A model generated the notes under the pieces. The model saw only the letters and a program-made list of their open reading frames with translations, ran no database searches and had not been told where the DNA came from. Position numbers and translations under genes: made by a program. Shown here one piece after another: positions 4,725-45,114 of a stretch of 64,000 nucleotides of DNA. This DNA comes from Pontibacter rufus (GTDB lineage: Bacteria; Bacteroidota; Bacteroidia; Cytophagales; Hymenobacteraceae): NCBI RefSeq assembly GCF_015694705.1, contig NZ_JADQDR010000010.1, positions 1 to 64,000 on the forward strand, given 5' to 3'. The first letter of the stretch is position 1, and each line of letters begins with the position of its first letter.

Positions 4725-5476
4725 TATTTCCTATCGGAGCGCCGGAAGTTATCTATAATAATGGCGGTGGCCGTAGCAACATTTAAGGACTCTGCCTGGC
4801 CGAAAGCAGGAATTTTAATCAGCTTGTTAACGTGTTGCGCCACTTCCGGCCTGATGCCGTTGGCTTCGTTGCCCATCACCACAATGCCCTGCGGATTGAG
4901 TTGCATGGTATGAATGTTGTCGCCGTCGAGCGAGGCGCCGTATATACGGTAGCCGCTGCCTAACTGCTGCAGCCAGCCGGCCAGATCCAGAAAGTATACC
5001 TGTACCCGCGTAAAAGAGCCCATGGTAGCGGAGATAACTTTGGGGTTGTAAAAGTCGGCACAGGTTTCTGAACAGACTACTTTGGTGATGCCGTACCAGT
5101 CGGCAATACGGATGATGGTGCCCAGGTTGCCGGGGTCGCGGATATCATCGAGGGCCAGCACCAGTTCCTGCGGCTTTACTTCCAGGGGCGGCAGTTCGCG
5201 CATACTTGCAACGGCTAAGGCAGCGTTGTTGGAGGTATAGGTACCCGCCCGCACCAGGTCGTCTTCCTTCACGATATCGAACTGAAAACCTTTGTCGAGC
5301 AGATGCGCATGTTGGTTGTAAAAGGCTTCCGTAACAAAAAGGTGCTCCAGCCTGAAATCAGCTTGCAGCAGCTCCAGCACGCTTTTGGCGCCCTCCACCA
5401 CAAAGGCTTGGTGTTGGCTGCGGTATTTTTTTACTTGCAGGGATTTAATGTACTTTACAACTGCTTTTGACAACAT
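4724..5476 (-). CDS. TrmH/SpoU-family RNA 2'-O-methyltransferase
   Basis: The product has 250 residues. An N-terminal substrate-binding domain (SLQVKKYRSQHQAFVVEG...) precedes a SPOUT knot domain with the three family motifs: LDDIRDPGNLGTIIRIADW (motif 1), IVVMGNEANGI (motif 2) and KIPAFGQAESLNVATATAI (motif 3). It methylates ribose 2'-OH in rRNA or tRNA using S-adenosylmethionine; the target base cannot be told from sequence. I chose the ATG at 5476 (MLSKAVVKYIKSLQ), the usual family N-terminus. An upstream start at 5500 would overlap the divergent tamL gene, whose start is 14 bp away. Confidence 0.92.
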   Translation of the reverse strand: MLSKAVVKYIKSLQVKKYRSQHQAFVVEGAKSVLELLQADFRLEHLFVTEAFYNQHAHLLDKGFQFDIVKEDDLVRAGTYTSNNAALAVASMRELPPLEVKPQELVLALDDIRDPGNLGTIIRIADWYGITKVVCSETCADFYNPKVISATMGSFTRVQVYFLDLAGWLQQLGSGYRIYGASLDGDNIHTMQLNPQGIVVMGNEANGIRPEVAQHVNKLIKIPAFGQAESLNVATATAIIIDNFRRSDRK

Positions 5477-5490
5477 AGCCGGATAAAGGT

Positions 5491-7935
5491 TTGAGATCAC
5501 GATTATACATATACGCCCTCGTATTTACAATTTTATGTTTGAGTAGCTGCGTGCCCACCAAACATCTGGGTCCGAACGAGAAGCTGCTGGTCAGCATAGA
5601 ACCAAAGGGGCTGCAGCACATCGATCCGGCTGCCATTGAGGCACTTTACCAGCAGGAACCTAACCGGATGGTACTGGGATCTACTCCCTACTTATCGCTG
5701 TACTACTTCGGACAAAAGTTTTTCGATCCGCTTAAAATTCAGCAGCGCATTGAAGGGATGAAGCAGAAAATAGCCCGCAAGGTAGCAGCTGCCGGCAGCG
5801 ACTCCACCAAAGCCCGCAAAATCCGTGACCGCATCAACAACCGTATCGACCGGCTGGAAGAGAAAAAGAAAGAAGGCAATTTCCTGATGCAGGTGGGCGA
5901 GCCGCCGGCCATTTACGACTCTACGCTGATGGCCGAAACCATGGAGCAGATTGACATTTACCTTAACGCCAAAGGCTACTTTAATCACACAGCTACTTAT
6001 CAGAAGGACATCAAAAAAGATAAGCTGGTATACATCACCATCAATATTGACGAGAACGATCCTTACCGCTATGCCAATTTCAGCTACGGCATACCCGATA
6101 CGGCTGTCCTGAACCTGGTAAAATCTGCCGAAGAAAATTCTTTGCTTCAGCCCCACGAAATATATGATGAAGCTGTTCTGACGCTGGAGCGGGACAGGCT
6201 GTATGAACTGATGAAGAACCGCGGCTATTATGATTTTGCCCGCGCCTATATCTCCTTTGAGGTGGATACCAGCTATGCCGGCCACACGGCGCAGGTGAAA
6301 ACGCTCATTCAAAACCCGGAAAACGATTCGACACACCATGTATACAAGCTGAACAAAGTATACTTTAAAAGCGATGCCGACCGCTTTGGTATTGCCCGCG
6401 ACACGGTTACGTTCAACAACATCCGGTATATAGCTTACGATCTGAAGTATGCCCCGAAGGTACTGGACCAGAAAATCATCATTTATCCGGGGCAGCTCTA
6501 CAGCCAGGTGCGTACCAGTGTGACGCAGCGCCAACTGGCCGACCTGGATGTCTTCCAGTTCAACAACGTGCTCTACAACAAGATAACGGACCCCAGAGAT
6601 TCTACGAACACGTACCTGCTGAATGCTTTTATCAATGCCATACCTGCTAAGAAGTACCAGGAAACAGCAGAACTCGGATTAAACTATACCGAAGCCGTGC
6701 CGGGGCCGTTCAGTAGTATAAACCTGCGCATACGTAATATTTTTGGTGGCGCAGAAAACCTGGATCTGGGCCTGCACGGTGGCCTGGAAGGACAGCTGAG
6801 CCTCGAAGATCCGGATAAAACAGTTTTATCGAAGCAGTATGGCGCTAACCTGGGACTCACTTTCCCGACGATACTGCTTCCATTCGGCGGCCCCAGCATT
6901 CTCTCGGCGAATAACCCGAAAACCCGTGTGCTCACCAGTTTTACCAGCATCGACAGGGACGAGTACAAGCGCACAAATTACCAGCTCAGTTACGATTACA
7001 TCTGGCAGAAAGCCCGCACCACCCTGCAAATACCAACACAGCAACTCATTTTTTCGCCGGTGAACCTGAGCATTGTGCAGACTGACCGCATTTCCAATGA
7101 GTTTATAGCCAGCCTGGAGAAGTATAGCCAGGGCAGCAAATCGCTTATCGAAAGTTTCAGGAGCGCCTTTTTGTCCTACATGGCTTTCAATTTTATTTAT
7201 AACACCAACGACTTCACCCAAACACTTAATGCCCGCTACTTCCGGACGCTGCTGGAAGTAGGCGGCCTGACAAAAGAACTCGGCCTGAACATCAAGCTCG
7301 GCGACTTACAGACGTTTCAATACGCTAAAGCTAACCCCGACTACAGGCGCTATATTCCGCTTGGAGGCGAACAATACTTTGTTTACAGGATTAATGCAGG
7401 CGTGGCTACACCGCTATTTAACACTGATGTGCTGCCTTACGATAAATATTTCTTTGCAGGCGGCGCCTCCAGCGTACGCGCCTGGCAGTCCAGGAGGCTG
7501 GGACCGGGCTCGTATGCGACAGAAGATGTGGTATTTGAAAACGGCGAGCTGGTGCGCAAGCGCGATTTCGCTTTAGAACAGCCCGGTGAAGTATTGCTGG
7601 AAGGCAGTGCCGAATATCGCTTTAATATGTTCAGCTTTATTAACGGCGCTTTTTTTGTAGATGCCGGTAATGTATGGTGGCTTAAAAAAGACGAAACAAA
7701 GCCCGGCGCTGACTTTGCCTTTAACCGCTTTTACAAAGAGCTGGCGGTGGGTACCGGCTTCGGCATCCGCTTTGATTTGGCCGTTGTGGTTTTGCGCTTC
7801 GACCTGGCTACCAAAGTATACGATCCGGCAGGCATTAACGGGGAAAAGTTTGTGCTGGATAATTTCAGCTTCTCCGAGTTCTTCACCCGCAACAACCAAA
7901 GTACCCTAAACATCGGCATCGGCTATCCTTTCTGA
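5491..7935 (+). CDS. tamL: TamL: TamA-like outer-membrane lipoprotein (BamA superfamily)
   Basis: The product has 814 residues. It begins with a lipoprotein signal (LYIYALVFTILCLSSC), followed by POTRA-like modules (about 25-330) and a C-terminal Omp85 barrel (about 370-814, with KYFFAGGASSVRAWQSRRLG and the final strand NIGIGYPF). TamL is the Bacteroidota lipoprotein form of TamA and acts in outer-membrane protein or lipid assembly with TamB. No tamB gene is adjacent here. Translation must start at TTG 5491: a stop precedes it in frame at 5476 and later ATG codons would remove the signal. The divergent methyltransferase next door is a common neighbour of this gene. Confidence 0.88.
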   Translation: MRSRLYIYALVFTILCLSSCVPTKHLGPNEKLLVSIEPKGLQHIDPAAIEALYQQEPNRMVLGSTPYLSLYYFGQKFFDPLKIQQRIEGMKQKIARKVAAAGSDSTKARKIRDRINNRIDRLEEKKKEGNFLMQVGEPPAIYDSTLMAETMEQIDIYLNAKGYFNHTATYQKDIKKDKLVYITINIDENDPYRYANFSYGIPDTAVLNLVKSAEENSLLQPHEIYDEAVLTLERDRLYELMKNRGYYDFARAYISFEVDTSYAGHTAQVKTLIQNPENDSTHHVYKLNKVYFKSDADRFGIARDTVTFNNIRYIAYDLKYAPKVLDQKIIIYPGQLYSQVRTSVTQRQLADLDVFQFNNVLYNKITDPRDSTNTYLLNAFINAIPAKKYQETAELGLNYTEAVPGPFSSINLRIRNIFGGAENLDLGLHGGLEGQLSLEDPDKTVLSKQYGANLGLTFPTILLPFGGPSILSANNPKTRVLTSFTSIDRDEYKRTNYQLSYDYIWQKARTTLQIPTQQLIFSPVNLSIVQTDRISNEFIASLEKYSQGSKSLIESFRSAFLSYMAFNFIYNTNDFTQTLNARYFRTLLEVGGLTKELGLNIKLGDLQTFQYAKANPDYRRYIPLGGEQYFVYRINAGVATPLFNTDVLPYDKYFFAGGASSVRAWQSRRLGPGSYATEDVVFENGELVRKRDFALEQPGEVLLEGSAEYRFNMFSFINGAFFVDAGNVWWLKKDETKPGADFAFNRFYKELAVGTGFGIRFDLAVVVLRFDLATKVYDPAGINGEKFVLDNFSFSEFFTRNNQSTLNIGIGYPF

Positions 7936-33714: not shown

Positions 33715-35364
33715 ATGAAAAATTCTTACAGAACAATTGCTGCCGCCATACTTTTTGGCGGCATCTTTTTTAGCAGCTGCACCAGTAGCCAAACGGCTGA
33801 TCTGATAGTATACAACGGCAACGTGTATACAGTAAATGATAATTTTGATAAAGCTGAAGCTTTTGCTGTAAAGGATGGCAAAATTATAGCGGTCGGCACT
33901 ACGGCGGATATCCGTCAGAAGTATAAAGCCACCGAAATGCTGGATGCTGAAGGCAAAACCATTTACCCCGGCCTGATAGATGCGCACACCCATTTTTTCC
34001 GTTATGGCCTGGGCCTGCAGTCCGCAGATCTGGATGGCACGGATTCGTTTAAGGAAGTGGTACAGCAGGTCGTGGAACATCGGCAAAAATACCCCGATAC
34101 AGAATGGCTTACCGGCCGCGGCTGGGATCAGAATGACTGGGCGGTAAAAGAGTTTCCCTCCAAAGACACTTTGGACCTGCTCTTCCCGGACACGCCCGTT
34201 ATACTTACCCGCGTAGACGGCCATGCTGCGCTCGTGAACCAGGAAGCGCTTGATTTGGCTGGGATTAGTCCTGAGACAAAGATGGTTGGAGGCGCGGTAG
34301 AAGTAAAAAACGGGCATATGACGGGCATTTTGATTGATAATGCTGTGGATCTGGTAACTACAAAGATTCCTGCTCCCTCCGAAGCGGTGCAACGAACAGC
34401 TCTGAAAACTGCCGAACAAAACTGCTTTGCGGTTGGCCTGACGACCGTTGATGATGCGGGCCTGGATAAAGCTACTGTGGATCTGATAGATGCGATGCAG
34501 CAAAAAGGAGAACTGCAGATGCGGGTGTATGCCATGATGAACCCAACACAGGAGAACAAAGATTATTATTTTAAAAATGGTCCTTATAAAACAGACAGGC
34601 TGCATGTCTGCTCCTTTAAAATTTATGCTGACGGTGCTTTAGGATCCCGGGGAGCGAATCTGCTGGAACCTTATGCTGACAGGGCCGGGCACTATGGCTT
34701 TCTGCTCTCGTCAGAGCAGGAGTTCCGGGATGTGGCCAGGCAACTCAACGAACATGGCTTCCAGATGAACACCCATGCCATTGGCGACTCAGCCAACCGC
34801 CTGCTGCTGGATATATATGGTGAGGTGCTGGGCGGCAAAAACGACAAACGCTGGCGCATCGAGCACGCCCAAATTGTAGATCCGGCTGACATGAACAAGT
34901 TCGGCAAGTATAGCATTGTGCCTTCTGTACAACCCACGCACGCCACTTCAGACATGTACTGGGCCGGAGACCGGCTGGGCAGCGAACGGCTGACACATGC
35001 CTATCCCTACAGGGAGATGTTGCAGCAAACAGGTTACTTGGCTTTAGGCACCGACTTTCCGGTAGAAAGCATCAATCCGTTTTATACTTTCCACGCAGCG
35101 GTAGCCCGGCAGGATGCAGAGAATTATCCGGCCGGCGGCTTCCAGATGGAAAATGCACTTACGCGCGAGCAGACCTTGCGTGGCATGACGATCTGGGCCG
35201 CAAAATCAAACTTCGAAGAAAAAGAGAAAGGAAGTATAGAAGAAGGTAAATTCGCTGACTTTATACTTACAGACCGCGACCTGACGACCATAGCACCGGA
35301 GCAGATGCGGGCTACGCAGGTGCTCCGTACTTACCTGAACGGGAAACTTGTATATAAGAAGTAG
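33715..35364 (+). CDS. YtcJ-like amidohydrolase lipoprotein
   Basis: The product has 549 residues. It starts with a lipoprotein signal (AAAILFGGIFFSSC). The metal-dependent hydrolase core has GLIDAHTHFFRYG (HxH, about 88-100), DGALGSRGA, NTHAIGDSANR (His, about 352), RIEHAQIV (His) and LALGTDFPVE (Asp). Family members hydrolyse amides or imides of small molecules; the natural substrate of the YtcJ group is unknown. It is probably co-transcribed with amn. Confidence 0.88.
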   Translation: MKNSYRTIAAAILFGGIFFSSCTSSQTADLIVYNGNVYTVNDNFDKAEAFAVKDGKIIAVGTTADIRQKYKATEMLDAEGKTIYPGLIDAHTHFFRYGLGLQSADLDGTDSFKEVVQQVVEHRQKYPDTEWLTGRGWDQNDWAVKEFPSKDTLDLLFPDTPVILTRVDGHAALVNQEALDLAGISPETKMVGGAVEVKNGHMTGILIDNAVDLVTTKIPAPSEAVQRTALKTAEQNCFAVGLTTVDDAGLDKATVDLIDAMQQKGELQMRVYAMMNPTQENKDYYFKNGPYKTDRLHVCSFKIYADGALGSRGANLLEPYADRAGHYGFLLSSEQEFRDVARQLNEHGFQMNTHAIGDSANRLLLDIYGEVLGGKNDKRWRIEHAQIVDPADMNKFGKYSIVPSVQPTHATSDMYWAGDRLGSERLTHAYPYREMLQQTGYLALGTDFPVESINPFYTFHAAVARQDAENYPAGGFQMENALTREQTLRGMTIWAAKSNFEEKEKGSIEEGKFADFILTDRDLTTIAPEQMRATQVLRTYLNGKLVYKK

Positions 35365-35376
35365 TTATACTTCCCA

Positions 35377-35415
35377 AAATAAAAAGAGCCGCTTATACAG
35401 CGGCTCTTTTTATTT
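35377..35415. terminator. bidirectional terminator
   Basis: A perfect 16-bp stem (35377-35392 with 35400-35415) has a 7-nt loop, with A and T tracts inside the stem. It lies between the converging amidohydrolase and MFS genes. Confidence 0.9.
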
Positions 35416-35425
35416 CTGAACAGGT

Positions 35426-36754
35426 TTAAAGCGGAGCTGTAGTCTTCTCGGGTTCATCTGGCTGCATCAGCTTACGCCACCGCACCATTGATAGGAATAC
35501 CAGCCCAAGTACAAAGAATACCACCAAGGCCCGCACGCTGTTGCGCATGGAGCCTGTTGCCTGTGCAATGGCGCCATAGGCCAGCGTTCCGAGAACAATG
35601 GATATTTTTTCTGTTACATCATAGAAGCTGAAAAAGGAAGCATGATCAGTTGTATGTGCCGGTATGAGCTTGGAATAGGTTGAACGCGACAGCGATTGTA
35701 TCCCTCCCATAACAGAGCCAACCACGGCAGCCAATATATAAAAATCATAAGCTCCCTGGATAAAATAAGCGCCTATACAAATCCCAATCCAGATAACGAC
35801 TGCCACGATTAGCGCCCTAATGTTACCGACTCTTTTCGAAAGTACTGCAAACCCGTACGCCCCGGCTATGGCAACCAGCTGAATAATAAGTATGGTAAGT
35901 ATAAGCGCATCGTCAGGCAACTTCAGTTCTTCTATTCCGAAAATGGTAGCCACATACATGACAGTCTGCACCCCCATGTTGTAAAAGAAGTAAGCCAGTA
36001 AAAAGCGTTTCAGCAGCGGCAAATGCTGCACCTGCGCCAGTACCTTCTTTAGTTCGCGGAAGCCATTCAGCAACCAGCTGCCCTCCGGCTTGCGGTGGTA
36101 TACATTGCCTGGCAGATGGTAAAAAGTATACTGGGCAAAGCCAAACCACCAGAGGCCTGTCGTTAAAAATGCAATGCGCGGCGGCAGGCTGGTGTTATTA
36201 GCTGCAATGCCAAACCAGCCAGGCTTCAGAATCATGGCAAGGTTAAAAATAAGCAACAACACACTGCCGATGTAGCCCATGGCAAAACCGCGGGCGCTCA
36301 GTTTATCATACTGATCTTCGGTTGCGATTTCGGGCAGGTAGGCATTGTAAAAAACGATGCTCCCGCTGTAGCCGATAGAAGCCAGCACAAAAAGTATGAC
36401 CGAGAACGTAAAGGTTTCTTTGGTAAAGAAGTATAAGCCCACACAGGACAGGGACCCCAGGTAACAAAAAAGCTGCATAAACAACTTCTTACGTCCGCTG
36501 TAATCGGCAATAGAAGTCAGAAAAGGGCTAAGGGCGGCAATAATTAGAAAAGAGGCCGAAACGGCATAAGAGAAAAGCACCGCACTCTCCAGCTGCAATC
36601 CCAGGAAATCAACAGCCGTAGCACCAGAAGGGCTTCTGGCAACGGCGCTATAGTAAATCGGGAAAATGGTTGATGTAATAACGAGTGAGTAAACAGAATT
36701 AGCCCAGTCGTAAAAGCACCAGGCTCTGGTGGTGGCAGGGTTGTTTTTTTGCAT
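35426..36754 (-). CDS. UMF1-type MFS transporter
   Basis: The product has 442 residues with about 12 membrane helices. The N-terminal WCFYDWANSVYSLVITSTIFPIYY is the signature of the UMF1/Atg22-like branch. SLSRSTYSKLIPAHTTDHASFFSFYDV and ISIVLGTLAYGAIAQATGS also fit. Transported substrates are not established; related yeast proteins export amino acids from the vacuole. It is a single gene. Confidence 0.88.
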   Translation of the reverse strand: MQKNNPATTRAWCFYDWANSVYSLVITSTIFPIYYSAVARSPSGATAVDFLGLQLESAVLFSYAVSASFLIIAALSPFLTSIADYSGRKKLFMQLFCYLGSLSCVGLYFFTKETFTFSVILFVLASIGYSGSIVFYNAYLPEIATEDQYDKLSARGFAMGYIGSVLLLIFNLAMILKPGWFGIAANNTSLPPRIAFLTTGLWWFGFAQYTFYHLPGNVYHRKPEGSWLLNGFRELKKVLAQVQHLPLLKRFLLAYFFYNMGVQTVMYVATIFGIEELKLPDDALILTILIIQLVAIAGAYGFAVLSKRVGNIRALIVAVVIWIGICIGAYFIQGAYDFYILAAVVGSVMGGIQSLSRSTYSKLIPAHTTDHASFFSFYDVTEKISIVLGTLAYGAIAQATGSMRNSVRALVVFFVLGLVFLSMVRWRKLMQPDEPEKTTAPL

Positions 36755-36830: not shown

Positions 36831-38315
36831 TTATTTCCTTAGTAAACCATCATATACCTGTTCCCAAAGATGCTCGTAAGGCACAATCTCGAGCTCCGCA
36901 AAGATGTCGTCGGGCTTGGTGGCTGCTGATAACTTCTCCAGTAAGAGCTTGCTCTTTACTTTAATCTGCCTGAAATTGCCGTCTTCTTTCACCACCAGAA
37001 GCAAGAGCCTGAGGAAAACCCGTACGCGCTCCGCTTTGTTCCCTTTAAGATTTCTTGAAATATATTTACTGATAAGTTCCGGCTGGTTTTCTAATACATC
37101 ATACTTCTTTTTAAGCAAGCTGTCAACTAGGTCAAAGACAATGATGGCTAAATTAGCGCCTTCTTTATCTGCACTCAATATTTTGATTGCGCATATTTCT
37201 TTTTTCAGGAAGCCGGGTGCTTCTTCTTTTATAGCTGCATAGCATAGCAGCAGGTATCTTCGGTGCAGTTCCCATCGTTCCTGCTTGTTTCTGCTCAAAC
37301 TGTTAAAGTAATTATTGTCTTTTACCTGCTTCATCAGCTCCACAGCCAGCTTGTACTTCCTGCTGTATATAGCTAACTGCATGTAGTTCTCCATAAAAGC
37401 AAACCAGTTAAAGCTTTTGGGGTTATAATCTGTCCAATGCTCCTGCGCAAAGGCCAGTCCAAGTTCATACTGGTTTGTGCGGATATAAGCGTATGTCTTG
37501 ATAAAATTATTAAACCTTGCATTATACCATTTAGGATTTAATTTGCCTTGCTCCAACAGTTTCTCTGCTTCTTCAATGGCTCCAAAAATGCCTTCATAAT
37601 TACCTGTCAGCTCAAGCCAGGTTATGGTAAGAGAATGATAAAAATTAAAAATCTTAGAGGCATTTGTTTGTTCCCATAATGCGCCTAATTCTTTAAGGAC
37701 AGTTATGATCTGCGGCAGGTACTTATTTCTGGAAGTGGCTTTTCCTGAAAGCTCCATTTTAGCTGTATAGAATAACATTTCTGCCTTGCGCTCCGCTGTC
37801 TCCTGTAAATAATATTTCTGGAGTTCAACGCTTAAATAAGCATACTTAGGCTTGTCATGTATCAGCAGGCAGACATCCCTTTGGTATTCCAGTGCTTTGA
37901 TTGTGAATTCTGTTAATTCTGCAGAAATAGAAATGAGCAGAATTTGTTCTGTCAGCTTCTGAGCCGCTTTGTACTCTCCAGAATTTGAGAGCTTCCTGGC
38001 TTGGTGAAGCATTATACCACACTCGCTAATTTCATGCGCGCATATTTTAAATTTATTGGGATGTGCCTGTTCCAGGAAAATAAAACTATTCAACACTTTT
38101 TTCCGCAGGCGGGATTTGAGCATGCGGTAGCTTGCGCTCAAATTAGCACTTCCATAAATATAAGCGGCAGCTTCTTCATCTGTTGTGACGGCTCCCTCAT
38201 TTATAGCATCAAAAAGTTTCTTTTCAAAGCTGTCTTCTTCCTGTTGCGTGATAAGGGGCGATGCTTTACCTGACTGTTCAGCAACCAGTTTAACCAATCG
38301 TTTCAGCTCCTTCAT
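36831..38315 (-). CDS. helical-repeat protein, paralog A (unknown family)
   Basis: The product has 494 residues. I do not recognise the family. It has no signal peptide or membrane helix and is almost entirely helical, with TPR-like repeats such as GEYKAAQKLTEQILLIS, NQYELGLAFAQEHW and RKYKLAVELMKQV. It is paralogous end to end with the next gene: both share YRMLKSRLRKK near residue 65, NWFAFMENYM/F in the middle, and a nearly identical C-terminal EIVPYEHLWE. No HTH or enzyme motif is visible. It is likely a cytoplasmic scaffold or ligand-binding protein, and it is 62 bp downstream of paralog B. Only one heptamer copy occurs in this 3-kb pair. Confidence 0.8.
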   Translation of the reverse strand: MKELKRLVKLVAEQSGKASPLITQQEEDSFEKKLFDAINEGAVTTDEEAAAYIYGSANLSASYRMLKSRLRKKVLNSFIFLEQAHPNKFKICAHEISECGIMLHQARKLSNSGEYKAAQKLTEQILLISISAELTEFTIKALEYQRDVCLLIHDKPKYAYLSVELQKYYLQETAERKAEMLFYTAKMELSGKATSRNKYLPQIITVLKELGALWEQTNASKIFNFYHSLTITWLELTGNYEGIFGAIEEAEKLLEQGKLNPKWYNARFNNFIKTYAYIRTNQYELGLAFAQEHWTDYNPKSFNWFAFMENYMQLAIYSRKYKLAVELMKQVKDNNYFNSLSRNKQERWELHRRYLLLCYAAIKEEAPGFLKKEICAIKILSADKEGANLAIIVFDLVDSLLKKKYDVLENQPELISKYISRNLKGNKAERVRVFLRLLLLVVKEDGNFRQIKVKSKLLLEKLSAATKPDDIFAELEIVPYEHLWEQVYDGLLRK

Positions 38316-38377
38316 CTATGTTAAACTAAAACAAGCAAAATTATATACCCTGAACAATGATTATATTAAATACTTAT

Positions 38378-39859
38378 TTAATGTTTTTCCTCCAGTATAG
38401 AAAGAATATGCTCCCAGAGATGCTCATACGGCACAATTTCAATTTCTGCATAAGCATCGCCGGGCGGCGGCGTTTGAATCAACTTCTGGTATAGCCTTTC
38501 CCCTTTCGCCTTGCAAGCCACCGCATCAAAATCTTCTGTAACAGTGAGGATCAAAAGTTTTAAGAAAGTTTTACTCCGAAGGCTAAAAGCATCCTTCAGG
38601 TGTGTATTGATGTATTTTTTCAGGCTTTCAATTTTATACAGCAGCAGTTCCTTATCACCTTTCTTAAGAAAGATAATAAACTGAAGAATCAGGATAGCCA
38701 CATTATAGCCCTGCTTATCTTTGCTGTATTCCGGCGAGGAGGTTATGTCAAAAAAGCTGGCACCGGGTTTAGCAGGTATAGGCTCTGTACAATAGAGATG
38801 CAAATAGGCACTGTATAAGCCCCACCTCTCTTTCGAAGCACCTGAAGTTCTCGCAAAAGCATTGTTATGATAAACTTTGCTGATAAGATGATGGGCTAAT
38901 TTGTAGCGCCTGGAGTGAACAGCCAGCAGGAAGTAATTTTCCATGTAAGCAAACCAGTTGAGCAAACGCTCATTAAAATTATTCAGGTACTCTTCAGCGT
39001 AAAGTAGCCCATCTTCAAGCTTGCGAGCTAAAAGGTGCGCATAAACAAGTATAAATTTATTAAAATTGGAATCAAACCGAAGTTTATTAACGCTGTTTTC
39101 GTTAACTAACTTCTCAGACACTACTGTTAGATCGGCAATTTTTGAAAATTCACCAATAGACTCATAATATAGGATGGAGACTTTATAAAAAGAGTTAAAA
39201 GCATCAAAAGTACCCGCAGCCTTCCAGTACCTATGGAGCCTTTTTATATCTTCAGGCAGGTTTGGCAAATAGGCCTTTCTTGCTTTAATTGATTTATTAA
39301 ATAAAGTTTTAATATACTGAAACAGGCTTACAGCTTTTCTTTCGTAAGCTTTCTGGTGAAGCTTTAGCGTAAGCAAGGCGTCTGTCTCATTAAATTGCTT
39401 TAAAAGTCCTTGTTCTGAATAGGCCCTTAGCCTGAGTTCCAAGGCAGCAATTGAGATATTAGTAAGATCAAACTCCTCTGCAGTTGCAAGAATCCTGCTG
39501 GTTAAGCTAAGTACCAAATTATAGTTCGGCTGGGTGATAAGAATGTTTACATGATGCAACAACTGGAAACACTCATTTTCTTTATGCATAAATGCCCCAG
39601 CCCTAAGCTTAGGATACTCCATGAAAAGCAACCTGTTATAAAGCTTTTTTCTGAGCCTGTGCTTAAGCATTTTGTAGCGTACATCATCCGGCTGAGCCTT
39701 ATACAGATCAAAAGCGGCATCGGCATCATTAGAATAATTATTATTTCGTAAATTAGCCAGGAAGAGGCCTTCTTTGCTCTCCTTCTTTTCGTTTGGCAGA
39801 TAGTTGCTTATCCGCTTGCTTGATGTTACTAATCTGGCTAATATCTTTAACTCTTCCAT
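38378..39859 (-). CDS. helical-repeat protein, paralog B (unknown family)
   Basis: The product has 493 residues and the same architecture as paralog A: MEELKILARLV N-terminus, YKMLKHRLRKKLYNRLLF (about 66-83), repeated amphipathic helices, GLLYAEEYL, LNWFAYMENYFLLAVHSRRYKLAHHLIS, and C-terminal YAEIEIVPYEHLWEHIL. The two differ widely outside these landmarks, so the duplication is old. The gene starts next to a 343-bp AT-rich region, across which a small secreted peptide is encoded divergently. By analogy with RRNPP receptors (TPR proteins that bind imported signalling peptides) it could be a peptide sensor, but there is no direct evidence. Confidence 0.8.
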   Translation of the reverse strand: MEELKILARLVTSSKRISNYLPNEKKESKEGLFLANLRNNNYSNDADAAFDLYKAQPDDVRYKMLKHRLRKKLYNRLLFMEYPKLRAGAFMHKENECFQLLHHVNILITQPNYNLVLSLTSRILATAEEFDLTNISIAALELRLRAYSEQGLLKQFNETDALLTLKLHQKAYERKAVSLFQYIKTLFNKSIKARKAYLPNLPEDIKRLHRYWKAAGTFDAFNSFYKVSILYYESIGEFSKIADLTVVSEKLVNENSVNKLRFDSNFNKFILVYAHLLARKLEDGLLYAEEYLNNFNERLLNWFAYMENYFLLAVHSRRYKLAHHLISKVYHNNAFARTSGASKERWGLYSAYLHLYCTEPIPAKPGASFFDITSSPEYSKDKQGYNVAILILQFIIFLKKGDKELLLYKIESLKKYINTHLKDAFSLRSKTFLKLLILTVTEDFDAVACKAKGERLYQKLIQTPPPGDAYAEIEIVPYEHLWEHILSILEEKH

Positions 39860-40202
39860 TCAATAATGCGTTTAAAGAAACATTTAGATAATGAATTCTA
39901 ATTTAATCCAATAAATTATTAGATAAATCTCTGTTACTTTTTAACTAATTAATTCATTTGTAAACTTACGTTTAATTTTTAACTTTATACTTCATATACT
40001 GCAAAACAAGGTTACTATAGCCGTTTTTGATACAGCGCCTTCTACCAAAGAAGCTGCAAGGGGGTCCTTTTTTGTTTATTTTCATGTAAAGAATCTATTA
40101 AAGTATATTATTTTCACAGTTACTTTTAATAGTAAATCTTCCTTTCACACCTCATTATTATGCGCCATCTTTGCTATATATATTTAACTAAATTATAAAA
40201 AT
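39860..40202. other. AT-rich divergent intergenic region
   Basis: This 343-bp spacer separates paralog B from the small secreted peptide. It is clearly richer in A and T than the neighbouring genes, and carries heptamer copies near 39984 and 40100. CATCTTTG near 40165 is one base off TAnnTTTG and could drive the peptide gene. I see no further gene. Confidence 0.5.
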
Positions 40203-40343
40203 ATGATAGCTGTACTTTTCTCCCTGATGCTTAATTTGTCTCTGGCCACCAACCCACAGGCACCTGCTGCAACGACTACACAAGTAAGCCCTACCGATGC
40301 AGTATGTGGCGGCGTTCTGACCTGGAATGAAGATCAAGAATAA
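40203..40343 (+). CDS. 46-residue secreted peptide
   Basis: ATG 40203 to TAA 40341-40343. The N-terminal MIAVLFSLMLNLSLA is a short signal-like hydrophobic stretch, giving a mature peptide of about 31 residues starting TNPQAP. The tail DAVCGGVLTWNEDQE has the only Cys and a double Gly. No homolog comes to mind. The frame stays open for the whole length, starts about 30 nt after a plausible -7 element, and is followed after 60 bp by an oligopeptide-transport operon. It could be a pheromone or peptide precursor, a leader peptide, or a non-gene. Confidence 0.5.
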   Translation: MIAVLFSLMLNLSLATNPQAPAATTTQVSPTDAVCGGVLTWNEDQE

Positions 40344-40403
40344 AGAATTAATACTTTTCCCTATCTTGCCCTTTAAAGGCCATTTGCCAAAAAGGCTTAA
40401 CGG

Positions 40404-42122
40404 ATGAGGAAATTACAAATACTGGGTTACAGTTTACTGCTTCTGCTTTGTTTCTGCAGCAAGCCGAATCGGGTACCCGATGAAGTGCGAGTGCGGCTTA
40501 CCAGTGATCCTGAAACACTAAACCCGGTCAGTTATACTACTGCCGGATCCTTACAGGTTATCAACCTGCTGTTTCAAAGCCTTATGGCAATTGACCTGGC
40601 AGATGATAAGATTAAGCCGGCACTAGCTGCTACAAAACCTAGTATAGTACAGCAGGATTCGCTGACCTATATTACTTACCAGTTACGGCCGGAAGCGCAA
40701 TGGACAAATGGCAGCCCCGTAACCGCAGCAGATGTTGCTTTTACCCTTAAGGTGCTGAAAGCGCCCTTGCTGAACAACGAGCGGATGAAACCGCAAGTAG
40801 CATTTATCCATGATATCATCATTGACAAGGCCGACAAAAGAAAGTTCACGTTTGTCTGTGATGGTTTTACGCCGGAGATGGAATTGCTGACAGGAGACTT
40901 TTTTATCCTGCCTGCTTACCTGTTTGATCCGGAAGGTAAGATGGAAGCTTTTACAGTTTCTGATTTTGCCGGTGATAATTCCGCACGGGAGAATGACGAA
41001 GGCTTGCAAAATTTTGCTGCCCATTACAATAGCGCAGAATATGCCCGCAGCAAAGATTTGCTGCAAGGCAGCGGTGGCTACGTAATAACAGCGTGGGAAC
41101 AAGGACAGTATCTGACCCTGAAGCGCAAAGATGATTGGTGGGGCAACCATGTTGACGATAACACACATGCCTTAACTGCAAATCCGCTTCAAATCAGTTT
41201 TAAGATAATACCGGATAATACCACAGCACTTTTAGCGCTGAAAAACCAGCAACTGGATGTACTTGAAAATATTCCGGCGGCAGAATTCAATCAGCTAAAG
41301 GCAGATAAGTCCTTTACAGAGGATTATGCACTCTATACGCCGAACTCGTATGAGTTCGCCTATATTGGTCTCAACAGCAGGCTGCCAAAACTTTCGGATA
41401 AGCGCACCCGTCAGGCTATAGCCAATTTGCTTGACATAAACAGCTTTATAAAGGTATCGCAGCAATCGTATGCTACGCCTACAGTAGGCCCGGTGCCTCC
41501 TTCCATAAAGCCGTATTACAACAACAAACTTAAGCCTTACTCCTACAACTTACAAAAGGCAACTGCCCTGCTACAGGCTGCAGGCTGGCAACGCAAAGCG
41601 GATGGCTGGTTTAAAACCATCAATGGCCAGCAGCAGCAGCTTACGCTCGAAGTAAGCTATCGGGCAGGTAATACGGTTTTTGAGAATGCAGCTCTCATTT
41701 TTCAGCAGGGCGCTGCCAAAGCCGGTATCCCGGTAACCGTGCAGGCACAGGAAGGAAGCCTCTTCAGCCAGAAAGCGAAAGCACATGATTTTGACATGTT
41801 CTTCCGGGCGCTATCGGGCAATCCCTTTGTATTCAATTTCAAACCGCTCTTTTATACTTCTTATGCCAATGATGGCGCTAACTATACCGGCTTCGGCACG
41901 CCGGAAAGCGACAGTATACTGGATGCGTACAATGTGGCTGAAGATGATAAGGAGAAAGCGCGTCTCCTGAAAAGGCTACAGGAGATCCTGCACGAAGAAG
42001 CTGCTTTTATTGCACTTTATTACCAGAAAGATCGGCTGGCGGTGCATCGCCGGTTCACCAATCTTAAAATCTCCGGCTTGGAGCCCAACTATGATGTAAG
42101 CTCCTTTAAGCTGCAAGAATAA
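40404..42122 (+). CDS. ABC-type oligopeptide-binding lipoprotein (SBP family 5)
   Basis: The product has 572 residues with a lipoprotein signal (LGYSLLLLLCFC) near the N-terminus. The family 5 pattern is clear: RLTSDPETLNPVSYTTAG, YQLRPEAQWTNGSPVTAADVAFTLKVL, then LQGSGGYVITAWEQGQYLTLKR, FAYIGLNSRLPKLSDKRTRQAIANLLD and LHEEAAFIALYYQKDRLAVHRR. It should capture peptides or similar solutes in the periplasm for the two permeases that follow after 8 bp. Ligand unknown. Confidence 0.93.
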   Translation: MRKLQILGYSLLLLLCFCSKPNRVPDEVRVRLTSDPETLNPVSYTTAGSLQVINLLFQSLMAIDLADDKIKPALAATKPSIVQQDSLTYITYQLRPEAQWTNGSPVTAADVAFTLKVLKAPLLNNERMKPQVAFIHDIIIDKADKRKFTFVCDGFTPEMELLTGDFFILPAYLFDPEGKMEAFTVSDFAGDNSARENDEGLQNFAAHYNSAEYARSKDLLQGSGGYVITAWEQGQYLTLKRKDDWWGNHVDDNTHALTANPLQISFKIIPDNTTALLALKNQQLDVLENIPAAEFNQLKADKSFTEDYALYTPNSYEFAYIGLNSRLPKLSDKRTRQAIANLLDINSFIKVSQQSYATPTVGPVPPSIKPYYNNKLKPYSYNLQKATALLQAAGWQRKADGWFKTINGQQQQLTLEVSYRAGNTVFENAALIFQQGAAKAGIPVTVQAQEGSLFSQKAKAHDFDMFFRALSGNPFVFNFKPLFYTSYANDGANYTGFGTPESDSILDAYNVAEDDKEKARLLKRLQEILHEEAAFIALYYQKDRLAVHRRFTNLKISGLEPNYDVSSFKLQE

Positions 42123-42130
42123 AGCACCTG

Positions 42131-43510
42131 ATGCGCTACTACCTGCTTAAGCGACTATTCCTGGCGATACCCGTATTATGGCTGCTGGCCACGCTGGTGT
42201 TTATGCTCAGCAGGTTATTACCCGGTTCCTACGCCGCCGAGAGCATCTTGCAGGAAGGAAACGGCTACTACGCCAAAGGCTCGGCTGCAGACAGAGCCAC
42301 CGCATACCAGCAATACCTGATCAGAACAGGCCAGCATCTGCCTCTTTTCTATTTTAGTGTCAGCTCCGGCGCCACGCCGCCCGATTCGTTACTACGGCTG
42401 CTTCCGGAAGCAGCCCAGCATAACTTACAACAACTTGCCTGGCATATAGGAAACTGGCAGGAAGCTTACACTTTCTGGCGCACTCTACAGGAACTACAGC
42501 TGCATGCAGGTCCGGCAGAGTTACAGGCGCTTGCACCTTTTCTGCAGACTATTACCACCACGACCAACGTACAGCAAAGAGTTGAGGCAGCCAGGGCAAT
42601 TATAAAGTATGATACTGCTTCGCCACTTGCCCGGAAACTTTACCGCCTTGCTCTAAAATTGCAGCAGCAACATCGCTTGAGTTTTATGATTCCCTCCCTT
42701 CGGTGGCATGGCACCGCTAATCAGTACCACAAATGGCTCACAGGCATTCTGCACGGCAACTTGGGCAACTCTTACCGCGACAGCAGAAGTGTAACAGACA
42801 TCATCGTAGAGACCAGCGCAAATACTTTCTGGATTATTTTTATCAGCATGCTGCTCACGACTCTGGCAGCGCTGGAGCTAAGTATAAAACTGATGCAGCC
42901 CCGGTACAAGCAATGGCGCAAAGCCGTTATGCCGCTCCTCTTCCTGATAGATAGCATTCCCCTGTTCGTACTCGCGCTGCTGCTGCTGGTGCTGTTTGCA
43001 AGCCCGGCTTTTCTGCAACTCTTTCCGGTGTATGGCCTGGGGTATGGGTATGGCGGACAAACCCGGATTGAGCAAATCACTCACACGCTGCCATACCTGG
43101 TGCTGCCTATACTTTGCCTTTCGCTGGCCCATCTGCCTTATTTGGTTAACCAGTTTTATAATGCTTTATCAGCAGCGGAAAGTATGGATTATACACGCAC
43201 GGCACGAGCCAAGGGATTACCGTATGGGCTTATCATCCGGAAACACATGCTGCGAAATGCGCTTTTGCCTATCATTACACTGCTCTCGGATTTTTTGCCA
43301 GCACTGATTGCAGGGTCTGTGATCATCGAAACTATCTTTGCGATACCAGGTATGGGCAGGCTGCTGGTTACTTCGGTACAGGCAAGAGATTATCCGCTGC
43401 TGGTGGCGATTGTGCTGGTGGTTGCAGTTGCTAAAGTAGTCTCGCATGTGCTAGCTGATATTTGCTATGCCTACGCAGACCCGCGTATCCGTTACCAGTC
43501 CCAGGCATGA
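42131..43510 (+). CDS. DppB/OppB-type ABC permease with enlarged periplasmic domain
   Basis: The product has 459 residues, about 130-150 longer than usual DppB. Helix 1 (about 9-27) is followed by about 200 residues of periplasmic helical sequence. The typical permease core comes after it (GILHGNLGNSYRDSRSV, then five helices). The ATPase-coupling EAA loop is AAESMDYTRTARAKGLPYGL (about 350-369), and SVIIETIFAIPGMGRLLVTS is a family landmark. The extra domain may contact the binding protein. The next permease overlaps by 4 bp. Confidence 0.9.
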   Translation: MRYYLLKRLFLAIPVLWLLATLVFMLSRLLPGSYAAESILQEGNGYYAKGSAADRATAYQQYLIRTGQHLPLFYFSVSSGATPPDSLLRLLPEAAQHNLQQLAWHIGNWQEAYTFWRTLQELQLHAGPAELQALAPFLQTITTTTNVQQRVEAARAIIKYDTASPLARKLYRLALKLQQQHRLSFMIPSLRWHGTANQYHKWLTGILHGNLGNSYRDSRSVTDIIVETSANTFWIIFISMLLTTLAALELSIKLMQPRYKQWRKAVMPLLFLIDSIPLFVLALLLLVLFASPAFLQLFPVYGLGYGYGGQTRIEQITHTLPYLVLPILCLSLAHLPYLVNQFYNALSAAESMDYTRTARAKGLPYGLIIRKHMLRNALLPIITLLSDFLPALIAGSVIIETIFAIPGMGRLLVTSVQARDYPLLVAIVLVVAVAKVVSHVLADICYAYADPRIRYQSQA

Positions 43511-44592
43511 AGCGTCTTCTTTACAACTTCAGGCAACTATGGCTGGAGAAATTGATATTCCGGTTGGTAACTGTATACCTGGCTTTGTTGGTTGTGCTGG
43601 TGCTGGTGCTGCCATGGCTGCCGCTCCCCTTTGCACCCAATTATCTGGATCTGAACCATATTTTTCAGCCGCCTTTTGCCAATGTACAAGGTGCCGGTGC
43701 CGCACATTGGTTTGGCACAGACGCCCTTGGCCGGGATGTGCTGACGGAAACACTATATGGCGCCCGTACGGGGCTTTTCATAAGCCTGCCGGTGGTAATA
43801 ACATCCACTTTTATTGGATTGATGTTGGGCGCAGGCGCGGGCTTTTTCGGCGATAATCAATTAAGGATAAGCAGGGCTGCCCTGCTGCTGTCGCCTTTGC
43901 TGCTGTTTCCGCTGTTTTACTTCGGCCTGTACCTGCCGCTTCATATACAGCAATATCACCTGCCTGCAAGCTACATGTGGCTTAGTTGGGGTACACTTGC
44001 GCTGCTATTAGGTATTTCCTGGCTGCTGCACCTTGTTTTGCAAAGATTAGCCTGGTTTAGATATAAAGCCGCATTCCCGCTTGACATGTTGATAATACGT
44101 GTTATAGAAGTTGTTTCGAGTGTGCCCTGGCTGATACTGGTGTTGCTGCTGGCCTCATTTATGCCTCCTTCTGTTATGTTACTTTCACTTATTCTGATAT
44201 TCACCAACTGGACCCATACTGCGCGGCTTGCCCGGGCGGAAATGCTGCGCATAAAAGCGATGCCGTACATGGAGGCTGGCCGGGCCTTGGGCTTTACGGA
44301 TGCCCGGCTTGTGCTGAAGCAGGCACTTCCCAACATGATGGGGCCGGTTTTAGTCGCATTCGGTTTCAGCCTGGCCGCCCTTCTGACGCTGGAATCAACC
44401 TTATCTTTTTTAGGTATAGGATTGCCTCCTACTATTGTAAGCTGGGGCAGAACCATTACAGGTATCCGATCCAATACCTCTGCCTGGTGGCTCGTAGCCT
44501 TTCCGGGAGGATTTTTAGCCTTAACAGTACTTGCTCTTCAAACTTTTAGCTACTATTTGAGATTAATGCTACAAAATAATTCGAAAATATAA
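43507..44592 (+). CDS. DppC/OppC-type ABC permease
   Basis: The product has 361 residues from the ATG overlapping the previous stop (ATGA). The frame extends upstream, but MKRLLYNFRQLW is the natural start. The core has HWFGTDALGRDVLTETLYGARTGL (family hallmark), about six helices and the EAA loop MPYMEAGRALGFTDARLVLK. The last helix region contains ESTLSFLGIGLPPTIVSWG. It forms the channel with the DppB-type partner. No dppD/dppF ATPase genes follow, so these must be supplied from elsewhere. Confidence 0.93.
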   Translation: MKRLLYNFRQLWLEKLIFRLVTVYLALLVVLVLVLPWLPLPFAPNYLDLNHIFQPPFANVQGAGAAHWFGTDALGRDVLTETLYGARTGLFISLPVVITSTFIGLMLGAGAGFFGDNQLRISRAALLLSPLLLFPLFYFGLYLPLHIQQYHLPASYMWLSWGTLALLLGISWLLHLVLQRLAWFRYKAAFPLDMLIIRVIEVVSSVPWLILVLLLASFMPPSVMLLSLILIFTNWTHTARLARAEMLRIKAMPYMEAGRALGFTDARLVLKQALPNMMGPVLVAFGFSLAALLTLESTLSFLGIGLPPTIVSWGRTITGIRSNTSAWWLVAFPGGFLALTVLALQTFSYYLRLMLQNNSKI

Positions 44593-44850
44593 CTGCTTAG
44601 AATGTTACTTATTAGATTTTTGAGCAAGTTGTATATTTATATTTTCAATCAATATATTACAAATTATATCAAATTGAAATGTATTAGCCAAACCATATAC
44701 TTAGTAAAAGCTATAGAAGTACGCCTGGGGTCTTTATTATCAACTGGAATAAAGAACCTTAATTATGTTACTTTTATCAATAAAAGTTCCTGTTTATTGG
44801 TAATATAAGTAAGTAAACTTGTACAGTGATTAAACCTAAACCCATTGTAC

Positions 44851-45114
44851 ATGAATACAGTTTTACTTCAAATGCAACAACAGTTGGTTGATAGTGGCTA
44901 TAAGAGCAAAAATCTGGGTTCAAGTTTATCGAAGAAAGCTACTCCAACAGAAGAAGAGAAAGCTGCTTTCTCTACCATAGATGGTAGCGTGATTACTTTT
45001 AATGCAGGCAAGAATGCAGTAAGCAATGGGGCAGGCATATTTATTGGCGATTACTTTGTAGGTGTAGCCGATCATTTTTTATCTATCAGCAATACGCCTT
45101 TTGTGCGGTATTAA
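44851..45114 (+). CDS. hypothetical 87-residue protein
   Basis: The product has 87 residues from ATG 44851 (a TTG two codons earlier is less likely). I do not recognise it. The N-terminal part is polar and helical (NTVLLQMQQQLVDSGYKSKN, then LSKKATPTEEEKAAFSTID). The C-terminal part is apolar and glycine-rich (NAVSNGAGIFIGDYFVGVADHFL). Leader-like and core-like halves recall peptide precursors, but there is no double-Gly cleavage site or Cys. It stands alone, before a terminator and after AT-rich DNA next to the peptide transporter operon. Confidence 0.55.
   Translation: MNTVLLQMQQQLVDSGYKSKNLGSSLSKKATPTEEEKAAFSTIDGSVITFNAGKNAVSNGAGIFIGDYFVGVADHFLSISNTPFVRY

Follow-up and report, generated by a model that had tools for sequence, protein, structure and literature searches.

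The locus described here, from the bacterium Pontibacter rufus (Hymenobacteraceae, Cytophagales), probably encodes a peptide-signalling circuit that functions like the RRNPP systems of Gram-positive bacteria. It lies in a window of 64,000 nt, by which we mean the whole stretch of DNA that was analysed (NZ_JADQDR010000010.1, positions 1-64,000), and it combines two TPR-like proteins, a divergent small peptide gene, and genes for an oligopeptide (Opp) importer. Multi-copy peptide precursors, joint loss of the receptor candidate and the importer, and Opp linkage in other families support peptide signalling, as far as gene sequences can indicate it. Intracellularly sensed peptide pheromones have been described from Gram-positive bacteria, and Hymenobacteraceae may communicate by short peptides of a kind so far described mainly there.

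The peptide precursor and its conserved neighbourhood

The candidate pheromone would be made as a 46-amino acid (aa) precursor (MIAVLFSLMLNLSLATNPQAPAATTTQVSPTDAVCGGVLTWNEDQE) encoded on the plus strand at 40203-40343. The original prediction had described it as a 46-residue peptide with a signal sequence; the open reading frame (ORF) and its hydrophobic N-terminus are present, whereas the positively charged n-region of a classical Sec signal is missing. Homologous precursors share an anatomy in which an uncharged hydrophobic N-terminus of 12-16 residues is followed by a variable Ser/Thr-rich linker and a conserved C-terminal core of the GGxGxW type. Lys or Arg occurs within residues 2-12 in one of 57 homologous ORFs, and an acidic residue occurs at positions 2-4 in 36 of them. 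A GG(x0-3)W-type motif lies near the C-terminus in 54 of these 57 filter-picked ORFs; two of the exceptions (loci L037 and L138) are genuine and retain GW, and the third, in L110, is spurious, an overlapping frame. The pooled ratio of nonsynonymous to synonymous substitution (dN/dS) between close species is 0.13 for the first 16 residues, 0.22 for the linker, and 0.056 for the last 14 residues, in overlapping pairs that make these values descriptive. Of the three parts, the Thr/Ser linker is conserved least.

The core is repeated in several Hymenobacter precursors. A 237-aa precursor (L108) contains 16 units of GSGGWGNSDV/GRGGWGSSDV and a 118-aa precursor (L111) contains six of TGAGGWGGD, while others contain five of GGSGGWGTGIVAN (L139), four of GGGASGWGDGH (L110), or two of TVGSGGWGND (L115). 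The repeats delimit a unit of ~9-13 residues, and owing to them two Hymenobacter precursors exceed the usual propeptide size of 10-100 aa. Changes between repeated units within multi-copy precursors are mostly synonymous. In L111, the six nonapeptides are identical as protein and differ at synonymous sites alone, and the spacers between them (YKSAE, IVRAE, FAHVQ, VAYQG, and LASVE) are unrelated; therefore, selection acts on the unit itself. Judged by its coding sequence, the L111 precursor is built as a multi-copy pheromone precursor would be. The window peptide has a single, diverged copy of the core and ends in AVCGGVLTWNEDQE; its mature part is probably the C-terminal CGGVLTW region. Candidate core peptides would be CGGVLTWNEDQE for the window, and TGAGGWGGD and TGGGASGWGDGH for Hymenobacter.

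The peptide gene keeps its place across relatives. We compared 55 loci from Hymenobacteraceae and Rhodocytophaga, namely the window, 44 named loci (L034-L077, from Pontibacter, Adhaeribacter, Rufibacter, Rhodocytophaga, and Sabulibacter), and 10 further loci. A small peptide gene is present at 55/55 and Opp-type genes come next. The full order, with TPRa (the peptide-proximal TPR-like protein) divergent from a peptide gene, a substrate-binding protein (SBP) gene, and two permease genes, holds at all 44 named loci, and the gene order is identical in Hymenobacter and allied genera. Further members from the window's own genus have the same peptide upstream, and L047 carries three peptide genes in tandem. 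A TPRa ortholog was found at each Hymenobacteraceae locus compared, and the 494-aa family to which it belongs is present in 37/37 genomes drawn from the window's own genus; Hymenobacteraceae carry the family almost without exception, and its inheritance looks vertical. A chance ORF was rejected as an explanation of the peptide frame because the frame is conserved, under purifying selection, at each of the 55 orthologous loci. A family occurring mostly without adjacent peptide genes, or an unconserved frame, had been named beforehand as speaking against a signalling locus, and neither is what Hymenobacteraceae present.

Importer, receptor candidate, and promoter

An oligopeptide-uptake operon had been predicted 60 bp beyond the peptide ORF. 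At that distance we find an SBP_bac_5 oligopeptide-binding lipoprotein with a lipobox-like LCFCS (40404-42122), an OppB-like permease (42131-43510), and an OppC-like permease (43507-44592; the listed ORF begins with TTG at 43462, and an in-frame ATG lies at 43507), all on the plus strand; the predicted operon stands except that it lacks an ABC ATPase. A fused 647-aa OppDF-like ATPase, the one such protein in the genome, is encoded on another contig, and the locus-linked SBP is the one SBP_bac_5 protein of the genome. Both permeases carry BPD_transp_1. The OppB-like protein (459 aa) has a long extra segment ahead of its transport domain (residues 259-454) and extends ~150 residues beyond most NCBIfam OppB models.

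Receptor candidate and importer have also been lost together. Among 47 Hymenobacter genomes drawn, two (G350 and G371) have no canonical TPR ortholog. These two have one SBP_bac_5 gene each, whereas the other Hymenobacter genomes have two or three, and when they were searched directly along with six others, the missing SBP proved to be the TPR-linked one. This co-loss has a chance of ~1 in 1,000 if the losses were independent, and it counts as one event if G350 and G371 are sisters. A second SBP, of a generic kind, is retained in Hymenobacter genomes as well. In other families, Opp linkage recurs in several arrangements: L144 has the peptide, TPR, permease, SBP, and OppDF genes together; in L117 and L118 an OppDF fusion immediately follows the TPR gene; in L164 an SBP gene lies near the TPR gene; and in L126 permease genes lie ~4.5 kb from it. 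Across the order (391 genomes), SBP_bac_5 occurs in 114 of the 123 genomes with a TPR gene, and the odds ratio for the pair is 7.7 with the window's own family removed, a value uncorrected for phylogeny.

The candidate intracellular peptide receptor is TPRa (493 aa, 38378-39859, minus strand). Downstream of it, on the same strand, is the distal paralogue TPRb (494 aa, 36831-38315), fast-evolving and duplicated within Pontibacter; the two share 34% identity and are the only members of the TPR-like family in the window genome. The original prediction of two tandem 494-residue helical-repeat proteins needs correction in the length of TPRa, and its structural part agrees with an AlphaFold2 model of TPRa (pLDDT 87, pTM 0.82), which is an all-helical TPR superhelix. 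Weak TPR_12/TPR_2 matches in Pfam were obtained for some family members, and neither window protein matched Pfam or NCBIfam. In a tree, the peptide-proximal copies form one lineage of shorter branches; the distal copies have long branches and, at the sampled loci, are confined to Pontibacter. The TPRb paralogues would serve particular lineages as additional sensors. Conservation is highest at NWFAYMENYFLLA (residues 301-313), DKxGxN (381-386), the C-terminal AEIEIVPYEHLWE (471-483), and a basic helix (60-79), which is preceded by N-terminal helices at 29-38 and 45-53. By eye, this basic helix (YKMLKSRLRKKL) is like the recognition helices of sigma region 4 and OmpR, and a Foldseek search with the N-terminal domain gave a sigma-4 domain as the match with the best TM-score (E 3). 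In hhalign comparisons with 17 sigma-4 domains from the same genome, the scores were no better than those of column-shuffled controls, and a sigma-4-like helix-turn-helix (HTH) was dropped for that reason.

The TPR pair and the peptide gene are separated, as predicted, by an AT-rich divergent region, which measures 343 bp (39860-40202) and holds three GTTAC sites (39933, 40011, and 40119). A conserved module, AGTTAC-N15-TTCCTTT (40118-40145, plus strand), keeps a start-to-start spacing of 20 bp between GTTAC and TTCCTTT upstream of the peptide in 21 loci. Many Pontibacter have two more GTTAC sites farther upstream, ~108 and ~77 bp away, and these distances are conserved. Past TTCCTTT, at the spacing of Bacteroidota -33/-7 promoters, follows CAnCTTTG, which we take to be part of a promoter of this type; in the window it appears as CATCTTTG (40166-40173, plus strand, 20 nt past TTCCTTT), a putative promoter element like TAnnTTTG, the -7 element of Bacteroidota. 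The 5.0-Mb genome contains one exact match to the module, at the peptide locus. With up to one mismatch there are 13 sites, compared with eight for the reversed pattern; of the 12 that carry a mismatch, at least seven fall inside long ORFs. The single exact occurrence suggests a factor dedicated to the peptide promoter, which we infer could be a TPR protein. Rfam has no RNA family match in the region.

The flanking genes also show some conservation. The predicted small orphan protein after the Opp genes is indeed present (89 aa, 44845/44851-45114, plus strand); it is conserved in Pontibacter and at two Adhaeribacter loci, carries the motif (A/S)TIDG...GxGIFIGDYFVG, and has no family match. On the other side, genes for an amidohydrolase and an Atg22-like MFS protein (window 33715-36754) keep their place by the TPR array in Pontibacter loci and lie several kb from it in Rufibacter.

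Proposed circuit and competing explanations

The proposed circuit would begin at the divergent promoter, which would drive synthesis of the small precursor. The hydrophobic N-terminus would carry the precursor to or across the inner membrane, and the multi-copy forms suggest that proteolysis would free a peptide of ~9-12 residues with the GGxGxW-type core. The co-encoded SBP and permeases, powered by the OppDF encoded elsewhere, would then import the peptide to the cytoplasm, a step to which gene linkage and co-loss point. There, as its fold suggests, the superhelix of TPRa could bind the peptide, and feedback by TPRa on the peptide/opp promoter could run through the GTTAC/TTCCTTT module, either directly or through a partner; TPRa would probably act on further targets too.

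Several observations weigh against this circuit or narrow its reach. The loci are mutually related, and their counts do not equal independent events. The peptide carries no canonical Sec signal. There is no second exact copy of the promoter module in the genome and, therefore, no visible regulon. No HTH was found in the TPR proteins by Pfam, Foldseek, or sigma-4 profile comparison, in agreement with the original prediction. No sequence match to solved RRNPP proteins was obtained, and a profile search of PDB chains (E<=1) returned a designed helical protein only. Foldseek against PDB gave no fold match below E 0.001 for TPRa; AimR chains recur among its best 50 matches, with weak resemblance (TMt 0.39-0.49, none at E<0.001). 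The proposal that the 494-aa family always lies beside small peptide genes was upheld at all 55 of the Hymenobacteraceae/Rhodocytophaga loci compared; beyond them, peptide and Opp neighbours are partly retained, a peptide being found for 6/22 relatives in other families of the order and 10/19 in other orders. Finally, a subclade from other families (L122-L125, L127, L134-L136, and L146) has no convincing peptide and no Opp genes, and we therefore make no claim of signalling for all of the family.

The same parts can be arranged into other explanations. The peptide might be a self-reporter that is released into the periplasm or stays in the membrane, is cut there, and is re-imported by Opp, such that TPRa would inform the producing cell about its own proteolysis, its envelope, or its export. 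We consider this unlikely, while granting that it fits all the anatomical evidence equally well. The operon has no outer-membrane receptor or exporter, the outer membrane separates cells, and a classical Sec signal is missing from the precursor. However, up to 16 copies per precursor would suggest that the amount of peptide matters, as it does for diffusible pheromones. It is improbable that the TPR proteins sense nutrient peptides generally and control Opp, with the small peptide serving the transporter as accessory regulator or membrane partner and not acting as the ligand. Such a role would suit the single SBP_bac_5 gene of the window genome and the tight TPR-Opp linkage, which takes several arrangements, some with no detected peptide (L117, L118, and L164), but the near-synonymous variation of the cores beside free spacers and the strongest constraint at the C-terminus point to a released unit, and Hymenobacter has its generic SBP besides.

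Multi-core precursors are known among modified peptides, and the repeats and the conserved Trp/Gly core would also be in keeping with the precursor of a multi-core bacteriocin or modified natural product, for which the TPR and Opp proteins would provide immunity or uptake. We give this little credence, as no modification enzyme or dedicated exporter is found among the window neighbours examined, and the family is near-universal and vertical-looking in Hymenobacteraceae rather than patchy and has no PADLOC match. The ORF could also be conceived as a translated leader that attenuates the Opp operon by sensing charged tRNA through its Thr/Ser-rich stretch, and its position right before the SBP gene would be appropriate. 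This is scarcely credible: the Thr/Ser linker is the part that varies most, the GGxGxW unit and the multi-copy forms play no part in attenuation, and the region lacks an Rfam match. We retain peptide signalling as the preferred explanation of the locus.

Wider family and known systems

A broader profile found relatives in 28 of 396 genomes drawn across the phylum. Divergent small ORFs with a hydrophobic start lie upstream of 70/99 TPR genes compared with 13/372 other genes of the same loci, a comparison in which the loci are not independent and the control genes include ORFs antisense to peptide genes; by group, such ORFs accompany 44/45 at the named loci and 10/13 among other members of the window's own family. 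All TPR-family relatives found belong to Bacteroidota. An unrestricted contig scan yielded no Firmicutes members, the other genome searches having been restricted to the phylum, and phage records and viral contigs yielded no match. A link to defence was not indicated by PADLOC. Two plasmid-borne relatives have no Opp genes. On a plasmid of Hymenobacter sp. BRD128, an orphan TPR gene directly precedes a tyrosine recombinase gene, with no peptide or Opp genes (L178:5896-8418). In the peptide-less subclade, the TPR genes of L122, L124, and L146 lie near a gene that is TatA-like by eye.

Other peptides occur beside diverged TPR genes. Short peptides with a hydrophobic start and IDRxED C-termini are encoded upstream of such genes in L166, L168, and L169, which come from another group of the phylum, as does L165, whose corresponding peptide ends in FDRYED; L166 has two peptides in tandem. 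In L161, from another Bacteroidota order, adjacent ORFs of 164 and 135 aa (4816-5310 and 5368-5775) contain 10 and eight copies of IVVEDIITR and converge on a TPR-family gene. Within the first ORF the units differ only synonymously, and the pair is possibly another multi-copy peptide precursor. In L133 (7902-8399), a peptide gene upstream of a TPR gene is followed by a weak 114-aa match to a response-regulator receiver (E 0.0012), a neighbour that recalls the targets of Rap.

If the proposed circuit is real, Bacteroidota would possess a gene-encoded, species-specific language conserved across a Gram-negative family, and TPR-based peptide sensing would have arisen, or persisted, beyond Firmicutes. 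One would then also have to ask by what route the peptides pass the outer membrane. The likely mature peptide is revealed by the repeats, which makes it readily synthesised and testable. It is quite conceivable, at somewhat less than even chances in our estimate, that this family evolved independently in Gram-negative Bacteroidota, with receptors that have no kinship to RRNPP, an Opp importer encoded at the same locus, precursors of up to 16 cores, and diverged relatives in other families and orders that use other peptides such as those ending in IDRxED.

RRNPP(A) systems have been described in Firmicutes (PMC9765709), and published large-scale detection of RRNPP systems was confined to complete genomes of Firmicutes (PMC10075063). 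No prior description of a peptide-importer-TPR system was found in the open-access literature, a coverage that mostly excludes subscription papers and preprints. The present locus resembles the RRNPP(A) systems (Rap-Phr, NprR, PlcR-PapR, PrgX, Rgg-SHP, ComR-ComS, and AimR-AimP) in having a cytoplasmic-type TPR protein gene by the gene for a short precursor, in the putative involvement of an oligopeptide permease, and in its multi-copy precursors, as some Rap-Phr propeptides contain multiple pheromones (PMC11343458); the weak fold resemblance to AimR may be a further parallel. It differs in that two membranes are involved, sequence homology is not detectable, no HTH is recognisable, Opp SBP and permeases are co-encoded beside the peptide, and a precursor may contain up to 16 cores. 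The parallel with RRNPP drawn in the original prediction thus extends to a probably similar way of working, through the conserved peptide-importer-TPR order and the multi-copy precursors, and not to membership, which is unsupported because sequence homology to RRNPP receptors was tested and not found.

In ComR-ComS and Rgg-SHP of streptococci, the pheromone promoter is under positive feedback (PMC8605241, PMC7564271), and ComR carries an HTH (PMC8605241). The present precursors would share with these systems a leader with a C-terminal active part; there, the precursor leaves the cell, is matured, and returns through an oligopeptide transporter. Both ComR and Rgg have an HTH, co-encoding of importer and peptide is not a stated feature of these systems, and the sequences are unrelated to those described here. 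Within the same phylum, signalling by N-acyl-cyclolysines has been reported in Bacteroidota (Linares-Otoya et al. 2025, as cited in PMC13419125). As presented in that citing paper, these compounds are likewise a form of chemical signalling, and they differ from the candidate pheromones of Hymenobacteraceae in being small molecules rather than gene-encoded peptides.

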